From positions 110,114-174,113 of the forward strand of contig JAGIAA010000003.1 of the NCBI GenBank assembly GCA_017745115.1: a DNA stretch of 64,000 bases, read 5' to 3'. Position numbers and translations under genes: made by a program. Of this stretch, positions 14,430 through 17,219 are shown in pieces. This DNA comes from Sphingobium sp. (GTDB taxonomy: Bacteria > Pseudomonadota > Alphaproteobacteria > Sphingomonadales > Sphingomonadaceae). Each line of letters opens with the position of its first letter. The first letter of the stretch is position 1. Below the pieces are notes generated by a model that was given only the letters and a program-made list of their open reading frames with translations, was not told where the DNA came from and did not search any database.

Positions 14430-14437
14430 ATGCGCGA
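14430..14437. repeat. 8-bp target-site duplication (left)
   Basis: ATGCGCGA directly flanks the left end of the insertion element and is repeated exactly at 17212-17219. An 8-bp duplication is the expected length for IS1595-family transposition. Confidence 0.95.
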
Positions 14438-14463
14438 GGCGTTATTATACTTGACGTACCCAA
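14438..14463 (+). repeat. Left terminal inverted repeat
   Basis: It begins GGCGTTATTATACTTGACG and ends ACCCAA. It pairs with 17186-17211, differing at 2 of 26 positions. It contains TTGACG, the -35 box of the transposase promoter. Read outward on the minus strand it contains a perfect TATAAT. Confidence 0.95.
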
Positions 14464-14479
14464 CGGGATGATCTAGACA
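14451..14479 (+). promoter_or_regulatory. Transposase promoter overlapping the left repeat
   Basis: TTGACG (14451-14456) and TAGACA (14474-14479) are spaced by exactly 17 bp. They are followed by the AAGGAG ribosome binding site at 14487-14492 and the ATG at 14501. This fits a sigma-70 type promoter with its -35 box inside the terminal repeat. Confidence 0.6.
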
Positions 14480-14500
14480 GAATCCCAAGGAGTTACGCCA

Positions 14501-15415
14501 ATGTCTGCCCTTTCTGCCCCGCACTTCCACAACGAAGAAGCCGCCTACGCTTATGTCGAGGCTCGCATCTGGCCGAATGGCCCGATCTGCCCGCATTGTG
14601 GCGGCGTGGAGCGTATCGGCAAGCTGGCTGGCAAAAGCACCCGCGTTGGCGCTTACAAGTGCTACCAGTGCCGCAAGCCCTTCACCGTGAAGATCGGCAC
14701 CATCTTCGAGAGCAGCCATGTTGCAATGCATCTGTGGCTTCAGGCCATGTACCTGATCGCGGGCAGCAAGAAGGGCATTTCGAGCAATCAGCTTCACCGC
14801 ATCCTTGGCGTCACCCTCAAGACCGCTTGGTTCATGTCGCACCGCATCCGTGAGGCCATGCGTGACGACGCTGGCCCGCTTGGTGGTCTTGGCTCGATTG
14901 TCGAAGCGGATGAGACTTTCATCGGTCGCGAGCCCGGCAAGGAAGTTGCCGCCGCCTATCACCACAAGATGAAGGTGGTTTCGCTGGTCGAGCGTGGCAC
15001 TGGCCGCGCCAAGTCGTTCGTGGTCGATGCGGTGAGCGCCGATGTGGTCGCTCCTATCGTCTTCGAGAACGTATATCAGGAAACCCGCCTGATGACCGAT
15101 GAGCATGTCATCTATCGCTTCATCGGTCGCCACTACCGCGACCACCAGCATGTTGCTCACAGCGCTGGCGAGTACGTCCGTGGCAAGGTCCACACCAACA
15201 CCATCGAGGGCTACTTCTCGATCTTCAAGCGCGGCATGAAGGGCGTCTACCAGTTCTGCGCCAAGAAGCATCTGCACCGCTATCTGGCCGAGTTCGATTT
15301 CCGCTATTCGAACCGCATCGCCCTTGGGTACAATGACAGCGACCGGGCAGACATTCTGCTCCGTGGTATCGTGGGCAAGCGGCTCACCTATCAACAAACT
15401 GGTGCACGGGTCTGA
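14501..15415 (+). CDS. IS1595-family transposase
   Basis: A 304-aa transposase that catalyses movement of the surrounding element. The N-terminal zinc ribbon has CPHCGG (about residue 28) and a second pair in YKCYQC. The helical IS1595 region follows (FESSHVAMHLWLQAMYLIA, then GISSNQLHRILGVTLKTAW). The catalytic core shows EADETFIG for the first acidic residue and the C-terminal NTIEGYFSIFKRGMKG block characteristic of the family. Full length with no frameshift, so it is probably active. The stop codon overlaps the ATG of the next small ORF (TGATG). Confidence 0.95.
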   Translation: MSALSAPHFHNEEAAYAYVEARIWPNGPICPHCGGVERIGKLAGKSTRVGAYKCYQCRKPFTVKIGTIFESSHVAMHLWLQAMYLIAGSKKGISSNQLHRILGVTLKTAWFMSHRIREAMRDDAGPLGGLGSIVEADETFIGREPGKEVAAAYHHKMKVVSLVERGTGRAKSFVVDAVSADVVAPIVFENVYQETRLMTDEHVIYRFIGRHYRDHQHVAHSAGEYVRGKVHTNTIEGYFSIFKRGMKGVYQFCAKKHLHRYLAEFDFRYSNRIALGYNDSDRADILLRGIVGKRLTYQQTGARV

Positions 15416-15576
15416 TGCCAAAGTCGAAAAAGAAGGACAGTCCGAAACAGCAGCGGGAGCGGTTCGAAAAGGCCGTCGAAGAGCTGTCGAGCGCTGGCGA
15501 ACTCGACCCCATAGAGGCGGCCGCGGCACTCGACGATATGGTGAAAAGGACGAAGGGCAAAGTTTCAAGCGACTAG
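15415..15576 (+). CDS. Small basic/acidic ORF coupled to transposase
   Basis: A 53-codon ORF starting within the transposase stop (TGATG at 15413-15417), which suggests translational coupling. The N-terminus is lysine-rich (MPKSKKKDSPKQQ), followed by a predicted helix (RERFEKAVEELSSAGE) and an acidic/alanine helix (DPIEAAAALDDMVKRTK). It is too short for confident family assignment. Small SPKEQ..RF-type proteins occur beside some transposase genes, so an accessory role is plausible. Its last 12 bp overlap, convergently, the end of the DUF262-HNH gene. Confidence 0.65.
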   Translation: MPKSKKKDSPKQQRERFEKAVEELSSAGELDPIEAAAALDDMVKRTKGKVSSD

Positions 15577-17133
15577 CCCTTCGTCCTTATCGCGATTGCT
15601 ATTGCACACGGGGTGCACCCATCGACCATTTTTCGCGGCAGAAGAGCCGCCATTACGCTTAGTTTCGATGTGGTCGAGTACCTTGCCGTTCGGATGCAAC
15701 AGTCCGCCGCAAAGAGGGCATTTTTCTACATGAGACAAATCGCTGAGCGTGATCACCGTCTTTGTACGAGTTGCAAATTTACCGCCGGCACTGCCGAGAT
15801 TATTCAGTTCATCGGCTTCCGTTTCATCCCCCACCAAACGCTTATATTTTTCACCGAGCGACCGCCAAACCGCCCCTGTATCAGCGGATTCTTCGACGGC
15901 GCTCAACACATCATCAAACAGCTTAAGCATCTTATTACGTGTCCGCCCGCCTGTTCCCAAAAGGTGGGTTGGTGGCTTCATGATAACGGGATGCGCCATG
16001 ATGAGTGCTTCAAAACGCCCGCGTGCCTTACGAAAGCGGGGAAGCGCATTGCGCCTATCTAACTCGCGGAACCATGCGATCATATTTAATAGGGCTGCGG
16101 GCTGAAAAACGCCGGACGAATAGAAATACAGTGCCGGGTGGAGGCCAAATGAGCACCAGTCTGTTGATAGAATGCGCCCGACCTCTGCGCGTACGCGCTT
16201 CAAATAACGAATTGTATCTTCGCCCGTTTCGTCGTCGGGAAGAGTGTCACGGGTACTGTCGCCGCGGCTCGTGGAATCGGGAACCTTAAGTCCCGTAGAA
16301 AGGGCAACCAGGTCAAACGCTAGACGCACCGCTCCCATGCCATAATCCGCCCCCGCAAGCGGCAACTCCACTGTCTTCGATGGCGAGTTCAAACGAGGCT
16401 CGAAAAGGAGCGTGTGGATCTCACCGCCCAATTCCGGAACTTTTTCCCTCGCTTCGTCCGACCTGAAGTGCTGCCAATATTCGTGGCCAGCACCGCCACG
16501 CGGGATTGCACGTGTAGCCACTGAAAGAGCCGACCTTGGGGAACGGATAATCCTAACTTCCAAGTTGTCGATTTGCGTGCCTGCCTGATTGATGCGGATA
16601 AACGCTTCACCAGCCTGCTTAGGTGTCTTTCCTTTGATCCACTGCGCGTCTAACCCCTTCATTCGAATAAGAGGCAAGCGGGCGCTAAAATCAGCCCACG
16701 TTCCCGGCCCCTCCTTTATCAGCCGCTGCGTTTCTTGATGCATTGCGAGTTGATGTGGCGGTATGCCTTCTTTGAATTGCTTGCGAGATAGCTCGCCCGC
16801 GCCATAATCGTCGCGTACCCATGCGATGAGCGCGCTTAGTCGGTGCGCGCCATCGATCACAAAGATGTGTGGTCCGTTCTGCCAAAGAACCAATGACGGG
16901 ATGATGTCCTGCTCGGCGAAGGTCGTAATTAGCGAAAGCACTTGATCAGGTTTCCAGTTCGAAGTTTCGCGCTGGAAGTCCGGCTTTCGCAGCTGGTCGA
17001 AAATGATAGACGGCTCAAGATCAGAGATGCGTATTGTGCGCTCATCAACTTCAACGGGCGGGTATCCGCCAAGCAAATCGGCTCGCCCGATAAGTGCATC
17101 GAGATTCACGACATTTCGTTCGTTTCGGGCCAT
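15565..17133 (-). CDS. DUF262-HNH nuclease (transposon passenger)
   Basis: A 522-aa protein. The N-terminus is a DUF262 (ParB/Srx-like) domain with FQRETSNWKPDQVLSLI and the signature DGAHR (residues 94-98, a variant of DGQQR). The C-terminus is an HNH nuclease with a zinc knuckle CPLCGG (from 472), the catalytic LDHIETKRNGG (D487-H488) and HPVCNSNRD. DUF262 plus HNH-type domains are the architecture of GmrSD-like type IV restriction and other anti-phage proteins. That role is inferred here. ATG 17133 is preferred to 17166 because GGGGAGG lies 7 bp upstream. The gene lies entirely within the IS1595 element. Confidence 0.85.
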   Translation of the reverse strand: MARNERNVVNLDALIGRADLLGGYPPVEVDERTIRISDLEPSIIFDQLRKPDFQRETSNWKPDQVLSLITTFAEQDIIPSLVLWQNGPHIFVIDGAHRLSALIAWVRDDYGAGELSRKQFKEGIPPHQLAMHQETQRLIKEGPGTWADFSARLPLIRMKGLDAQWIKGKTPKQAGEAFIRINQAGTQIDNLEVRIIRSPRSALSVATRAIPRGGAGHEYWQHFRSDEAREKVPELGGEIHTLLFEPRLNSPSKTVELPLAGADYGMGAVRLAFDLVALSTGLKVPDSTSRGDSTRDTLPDDETGEDTIRYLKRVRAEVGRILSTDWCSFGLHPALYFYSSGVFQPAALLNMIAWFRELDRRNALPRFRKARGRFEALIMAHPVIMKPPTHLLGTGGRTRNKMLKLFDDVLSAVEESADTGAVWRSLGEKYKRLVGDETEADELNNLGSAGGKFATRTKTVITLSDLSHVEKCPLCGGLLHPNGKVLDHIETKRNGGSSAAKNGRWVHPVCNSNRDKDEGLVA

Positions 17134-17185
17134 GATATTTCCTCCCCAATCACCGAAGATGCTCATTTAGCACCCCCAATCGCGC

Positions 17186-17211
17186 TTGGGTACGGCAAAT
17201 ATAATAACGCC
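17186..17211 (-). repeat. Right terminal inverted repeat
   Basis: The reverse complement begins GGCGTTATTATATTTGCCG, matching the left repeat at 24 of 26 positions. Read outward on the plus strand it carries TATAAT facing the aconitase gene, but no convincing -35 box at 16-18 bp. Confidence 0.95.
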
Positions 17212-17219
17212 ATGCGCGA
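17212..17219. repeat. 8-bp target-site duplication (right)
   Basis: ATGCGCGA, an exact copy of 14430-14437, directly follows the right terminal repeat. Confidence 0.95.

Follow-up and report, generated by a model that had tools for sequence, protein, structure and literature searches.

Introduction

Insertion sequences (IS) of the IS1595 family duplicate 8 bp of target DNA, and the transporter IS (tIS) among them were reportedly described by Siguier et al. 2009. The name tIS is given to IS1595 elements with passenger genes that are not directly involved in transposition; ISNha5, of this family, is cited with transcription-regulator passengers (PMC11891212). Here we analyse 64,000 nucleotides of a Sphingobium sp. 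contig (JAGIAA010000003.1; this whole stretch is called the window), within which an IS1595-family element carries a gene for a DUF262-HNH protein. Our sequence comparisons indicate that the element is a cargo-bearing tIS from a mainly alphaproteobacterial branch, all of whose delimited members carry cargo. It resembles the described tIS in transposase family, inverted ends, 8-bp duplications and passenger genes; it differs in that its passenger is a DUF262-HNH nuclease, that its relatives were met only with cargo, that this cargo is swapped, and that some siblings match anti-phage systems of shown activity.

Tn7-like transposons have a larger core machinery, whereas the IS1595 elements studied here have one transposase and measure 1.5-4.6 kb in all. 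The two groups are alike as mobile elements mostly found with cargo; 96% of Tn7-like transposons carry it, enriched for defence against mobile genetic elements (PMC8649781). In P2-like phages, the region near the portal gene is a defence hotspot (PMC9519451), and the P2-like phage KL3 has a homologue of our passenger, gp44, close to its portal gene and accompanied by an EcoRII restriction-modification (RM) system and Vsr; that is a phage locus, not a transposon. In its predicted layout, with an N-terminal DUF262 domain of ParB/Srx fold, a helical middle and a C-terminal HNH nuclease domain, the passenger resembles type IV enzymes of the GmrSD/BrxU type (PMC4619093, PMC8565348). In BrxU, Q101 and R102 of the DGQQR motif and D474/H475 of DHIYP are needed for phage resistance (PMC8565348). 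Our literature search covered titles and abstracts among the matches listed, with subscription papers outside its scope; DUF262-HNH, PD-lambda-5 or BstA on IS1595 elements was not found there, and a search for BstA together with IS1595 returned 0 papers.

Results

The mobile unit spans positions 14438-17211 of the window (2774 bp). A preliminary description of the locus had claimed 26-bp terminal repeats, an exact 8-bp target duplication and an intact IS1595 transposase, all of which our analysis bears out. The inverted repeats, GGCGTTATTATACTTGACGTACCCAA (14438-14463, plus strand) and GGCGTTATTATATTTGCCGTACCCAA (reverse complement, 17186-17211, minus strand), agree at 24 of 26 positions, and ATGCGCGA stands on both sides, at 14430-14437 and 17212-17219. 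A 24-base end motif, allowed up to 3 mismatches, occurs at only two places in the whole window, both of them ends of the element, and 100 shuffles gave 0 matches. The transposase (14501-15415, plus strand, 304 amino acids (aa)) has a zinc ribbon (PF12760) and a DDE domain (PF12762, E 2e-31, 109.3 bits, cut-off 27) and matches NF033547 at E 7e-54 with 182.9 bits (cut-off 75), so that a transposase above the curated cut-off goes together with inverted repeats and an 8-bp duplication, as expected of the IS1595 family. Its stop overlaps, in the form TGATG, the start of a 53-aa open reading frame (ORF; 15415-15576, plus strand) with homologues in sibling elements. Both genes converge on the cargo gene (15565-17133, minus strand), which encodes 522 aa, or 533 aa from an alternative in-frame ATG at 17166; homologues P0003, P0005 and P0010 have an N-terminal extension of this kind. 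The convergent, overlapping layout of the preliminary description thus stands as to convergence and needs correcting as to overlap: it is the 53-aa ORF, missed there, that the 3' end of the cargo overlaps.

The element lies between a helix-turn-helix (HTH) gene and an aconitase gene. In two relatives (L280 and L281), whose genomes belong to the family of Sphingobium cyanobacteriorum genome G001 and whose aconitase is 81-82% identical to the N-terminal part in the window, these two genes are at most about 410 bp apart, which implies that the site is empty there. That two unrelated insertions were taken for one unit is thereby already contradicted and scarcely credible, since the same layout, ends and duplications also recur in other genera. 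Similar DNA was met in 41 plasmid records, each matching less than 80% of the element, and a phage search for the transposase returned 2 unannotated records at 34-36% identity. A scan of the element found 4 promoter sites against 1.8 expected and 3 terminators against 3.5 expected, with no trustworthy site of either kind at the start of the cargo gene. The left end has a TTGACG box (14451-14456) that the right end does not keep, one of the two end mismatches falling inside the TTGAC box and one beside it; among the 134 elements delimited below, TTGAC occurs at the left end in 87 and at the right end in 35. The left box is possibly the -35 element of the transposase promoter.

How general is this arrangement? 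Scanning genomes with an alignment of 51 homologues of the passenger, we kept 80 of 275 relatives, and a transposase-based search of three families was positive in 66/298 genomes (E<=1e-60), 79/296 and 17/295 (E<=1e-55). In the first family five places were left out (in G017, G073, G112, G153 and G304); in the second, 61 regions were taken for 126 places; in the third, 19 of 20 places were taken, the remaining one being L047. From 172 distinct transposases (87 + 85) we delimited 134 elements, a spurious call (L202) having been dropped, and 105 of these have exact 8-bp duplications. When the right-hand side was reversed as a control, the same rule passed 6/134, with 0 duplications. Some transposases are broken, that of L001 being split over two frames and that of L034 having an in-frame stop. 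Two pairs of IS1595 elements are adjacent (L159 and L189), and both L159 elements have the same 8-bp duplication, AAGAGGCG, as if one had inserted at the border of the other.

The preliminary description suggested looking for other genomes with the same or a swapped passenger, and the 134 elements do contain unrelated cargo between like ends. None is bare: at least 519 bp follow the transposase in every one, and the longest ORF beyond it has a median length of about 270 aa (ORF calling was mechanical, from stop to stop with the longest kept where ORFs overlapped, and some of the small "cargo" ORFs are therefore false). In four blastn comparisons, the close siblings L026, L197, L198 and L106 show 76-82% identity across the ~1.1 kb at the left and 88-96% in the final 25-27 bp, and no further match. 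The 53-aa family accompanies the left module across siblings that differ in cargo. As these alignments show, left end, transposase and 53-aa ORF form a fixed ~1.1-kb module that shares a right end of ~25 bp, with a replaceable cassette in between. Unrelated cargo thus takes the place of the passenger in sibling elements, as expected of a tIS, and this swap led us to reject the idea that the passenger is required for transposition. The preliminary description would have counted against cargo status homologous elements lacking the gene while the gene sits at the same locus without the repeats; elements without the gene and genes without the ends were each found, but at different loci, a pattern that points to an exchange of cargo and does not count against the gene being cargo.

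The small ORF pressed against the 3' end of the cargo could suggest an addiction module, in which the nuclease becomes toxic upon loss of the element and the 53-aa protein is the antidote. We consider this very improbable: siblings whose cargo differs also have the 53-aa family, and it was undetected in four DUF262 carriers (L004, L007, L001 and L182). Because of these homologues in siblings, we assign the ORF to the transposition module and not to the cargo, and its role as antitoxin or partner of the cargo was rejected.

DUF262-HNH genes recur as cargo. Among the 80 loci kept from the passenger scan, nine have an IS1595 transposase 3' of the gene and convergent with it (L001, L004, L006, L007, L025, L026, L034, L041 and L047), and in a tenth, the chitinophagal L035, it points in the same direction. 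End pairs were accepted in 8/10 (not in L025, which had a 40-bp end pair without duplication in an earlier scan, or L034); six of the eight have an exact 8-bp duplication, and L004 and L001 have none. In the full set, DUF262-HNH is the cargo of 11/134 delimited elements and convergent with the transposase in 10/11; nine of the 11 had been found via the passenger, and six of the other 125 elements (L190-L194, L196) come from genomes chosen for DUF262-HNH.

When the 12 DUF262 carriers (counting L025 and L034 but leaving out L200) are marked on a tree built from 85 transposases, the label requires 9 changes, at least 8 of them forced by well-supported branches. The label is nevertheless more clustered than chance (shuffle mean 11.4; 12/500 shuffles as low as 9), and a single clade (100/100) unites L001, L004, L025 and L034; some co-inheritance has thus also taken place. 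A quick passenger tree also needs 9 changes of the IS label. Moreover, transposase and cargo identity are uncorrelated among ten alphaproteobacterial carriers (Spearman -0.05, 45 pairs): window and L026 are 73% identical in transposase and 43% in cargo, window and L182 56% and 57%. Single capture followed by co-inheritance alone was rejected on the transposase tree and this correlation, though four carriers share a clade. These comparisons support the recurrence of DUF262-HNH in several IS1595 lineages, and so extend the original proposal of a simple IS carrying a single such gene, both to further lineages and to a swappable slot. The chitinophagal (Bacteroidota) element (L035:4876-9302, 4427 bp, duplication CAATTCCA) carries two more ORFs besides DUF262-HNH and is a separate association of this gene with IS1595.

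TnpB-type nucleases favour retention of their own transposons. Could the passenger likewise serve its element, cutting element-free sites or competing mobile DNA? The location of a nuclease-like gene within an IS, and its convergence with the transposase in 10/11 carriers, would fit this idea. However, siblings whose transposases share 68-75% identity with the one in the window (L199, L197, L170, L198 and L106) carry other cargo instead, target duplications vary between elements, so that no fixed site is apparent, and 70/80 fetched loci have the homologue without an IS1595 transposase, in many phyla and on viral contigs. We therefore judge it unlikely.

As to the passenger itself, the proposed DUF262-HNH protein holds up at its N-terminus, where PF03235 (GmrSD_N) matches at E 1.7e-11 and 45.0 bits (cut-off 33.2). 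The DUF262 or ParB/Srx-like domain covers residues 48-193 (16555-16992, minus strand), with DGAHR at residues 94-98, and the HNH domain residues 472-514 (15592-15720, minus strand), with CxxC and HxxC as putative zinc ligands. The HNH match (PF01844, 16.3 bits) stays below the Pfam cut-off of 21.4, while putative metal or zinc residues are conserved in the aligned homologues: H488, C472 and C475 in 51/51, H507 and C510 in 50/51, D487 in 46/51; the 522-aa length depends on which start is used. All 51 aligned rows have DG(A/S)HR instead of the DGQQR of GmrSD and BrxU (A96 in 50/51, S in one), with H97 and R98 each in 51/51. The CxxC/HxxC make-up of the HNH domain is a further difference from these enzymes. 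On our reading of the motif order, R98 and D487/H488 would be the counterparts of BrxU R102 and D474/H475, with H97 at the place of Q101.

In the predicted model (pLDDT 87.1), residues 30-185 make up a ParB/Srx-type domain and residues 466-522 an HNH-like end, with a helical middle between them. The top Foldseek row of this model is a weak match to BrxU, a GmrSD-type enzyme; the predicted fold weakly resembles GmrSD/BrxU type IV enzymes. A PDB sequence search with the passenger returned 0 matches. The match to SspE, a protein that acts together with DNA phosphorothioation, is confined to passenger residues 30-187. PADLOC gave no full-length match to a defence model, only partial weak ones to NsnA (6.9e-8), PD-T4-2_A (9.7e-4) and PDC-M55C (1e-3). 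The preliminary description had placed the protein with GmrSD-like type IV enzymes; DUF262 is indeed present, but DUF1524 (PF07510) is absent among its Pfam matches at E<=1. Because DUF1524 and DGQQR are absent we file the passenger as GmrSD-like, not GmrSD; it may work like a type IV enzyme without belonging to that class.

What do the siblings carry? One element (L185, duplication TAAGAATG) matches both genes of PD-lambda-5 (3e-178 and 2e-116), which protects E. coli (PMC9519451). The second element of L189 (ACTAAGAG) matches BstA (9e-116), an abortive-infection protein (PMC8585504), beside a DUF3800-like gene assigned by its clustering with PDC-M04A matches; L188 has a second BstA-like gene, again by clustering, and the batch scan counts two BstA members. 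Candidate models are matched by L174 (PDC-S46, 5e-255) and L137 (PDC-S13, 1e-111). We scanned cargo in two batches, of 80/138 ORFs (leaving aside DUF262 ORFs, short second ORFs and most of those at loci whose ends were not called, which supplied 6 of the 80) and of 81/95 ORFs, together with 119/121 flanking ORFs, two in L159 being dropped as they lie inside the neighbouring element. These sets are pools for scanning and imply no homology, and family counts are those among the matches listed. DUF3800 appears in at least 10/80 and at least 8/81 cargo ORFs; further domains are PIN, DNA methyltransferase, RelA/SpoT, AAA, SocA/Panacea, Mrr and Schlafen-like. Single-ORF PADLOC scans gave 0 families for 13/20 cargo proteins. 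The flanking ORFs, by contrast, show mostly housekeeping and some phage domains among the 25 families listed, and also include methyltransferase, DinG and PDC-S14 matches.

Two other kinds of cargo stand out. The commonest is an unnamed ~200-aa family in 29/134 elements (e.g. L153:8756-9319, L233:3195-3836), in the transposase direction in 29/29. Eight delimited elements contain a tRNA with anticodon UUA (L126:3172-3259, L137:4982-5068, L144:8732-8819, L148:8555-8640, L192:3455-3540, L245:3989-4072, L262:3790-3877 and L264:5934-6020), and a ninth locus, L177:4166-4254, has no called ends. The Rfam tRNA score is 47-65 bits in 9/9, and the variable arm is long; from its features we take the tRNA to be leucine-like. 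With this anticodon it would read UAA (ochre) stops. An ORF of ~110-130 aa, coiled-coil and winged-helix-like by eye, follows it in 7/9 loci. The tRNA pattern occurs in 5/298 genomes, always at these loci, and in 2/296 of another family, one within a delimited element and the other (L320) without an IS1595 transposase within ~1.5 kb on each side. In tRNA elements the transposase ends 1-2 codons past KRLTY at UAA or UAG (8/8 elements measured; Fisher p 0.05 for the type of stop by itself), while elements without the tRNA have longer tails (<=2 codons in 5/142; Mann-Whitney p 5e-6, the rows being related). The association may reflect no more than the junction that a shared cassette creates.

Outside IS1595 elements, the passenger family extends across bacterial phyla and to one thaumarchaeal contig. 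By tblastn, 22 non-IS loci, 10 alphaproteobacterial-clade ones among them, show no transposase remnant, and we rejected a decayed IS1595 beside such homologues. On a conjugative B. glumae plasmid the homologue stands beside a DncV-like CD-NTase, a ThiF and a JAB-type gene, neighbours that by gene content would make up a cyclic-oligonucleotide-based antiphage signalling system (CBASS). Another homologue lies in inovirus Pf8. The 132 neighbours of the 70 non-IS loci include matches to type I specificity, ZorD, DpdE and DruM models at E<=1e-5, a tally with no taxon-matched control. The thaumarchaeal gene lies between 20-bp perfect inverted repeats (L079:4914-8588) where an IS1595 transposase was not found, and is perhaps part of another transposon type.

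Discussion

Taken together, we think it probable that the window element is an IS1595 tIS with a replaceable cassette, whose present cargo acts as a GmrSD/BrxU-type restriction nuclease protecting the host. An anti-phage role of the passenger is plausible by context because PD-lambda-5 and BstA are sibling cargo, CBASS-type and phage RM genes are neighbours, and the predicted fold is weakly BrxU-like; the homologues near CBASS-type genes, in the KL3 RM cluster and in Pf8 lend it support. How might such a unit work? The transposase would move it by its ends, giving rise to the 8-bp duplications, while the N-terminal ParB/Srx-fold NTPase of the cargo would sense foreign or modified DNA and license the C-terminal HNH domain to cut DNA. 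A host keeping the element would gain protection, and the element would persist.

Some observations call for restraint. DUF262-HNH is present in only 2/125 elements not found via the passenger (L182 and L200), a caution against over-reading its repeated capture, and two other plasmid copies have no defence gene nearby, a third plasmid copy being unannotated. Those two copies, together with the spread of the family over bacterial phyla and one thaumarchaeal contig, would suit a conserved nuclease of DNA metabolism or stress, without immune role and mobile by happenstance. We find this rather improbable, because the family is patchily distributed, is associated time and again with mobile elements, and has CBASS-type genes and EcoRII RM among its neighbours.

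Returning to a host-protective cassette on a tIS, the slot that holds the nuclease gene here is filled in close relatives by different cargo, part of which matches known phage-defence genes, so that this IS1595 group has the look of a vehicle into which small immune genes are swapped. More generally, we put at about even the prospect that this IS1595 branch in Alphaproteobacteria has become an obligate cargo vehicle, made up of a ~1.1-kb module and a right end of ~25 bp, in which entire cassettes for immunity or conflict are exchanged: DUF262-HNH, DUF3800, PIN pairs, PD-lambda-5, BstA, methyltransferases and the ochre-reading tRNA. If so, these elements would be among the smallest mobile carriers of defence, and their unnamed cargo families, including the commonest, would be candidate defence genes. 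Defence genes are usually found through their clustering in islands or prophage hotspots; an element of 2-4 kb, whose ends mark the DNA that moved and whose slot content is the cargo, would offer a sharply bounded route to them. The same vehicle with different cargo would provide clean pairs for testing the effect of cargo on the host, and a single-gene nuclease could in this way spread without plasmid or phage.

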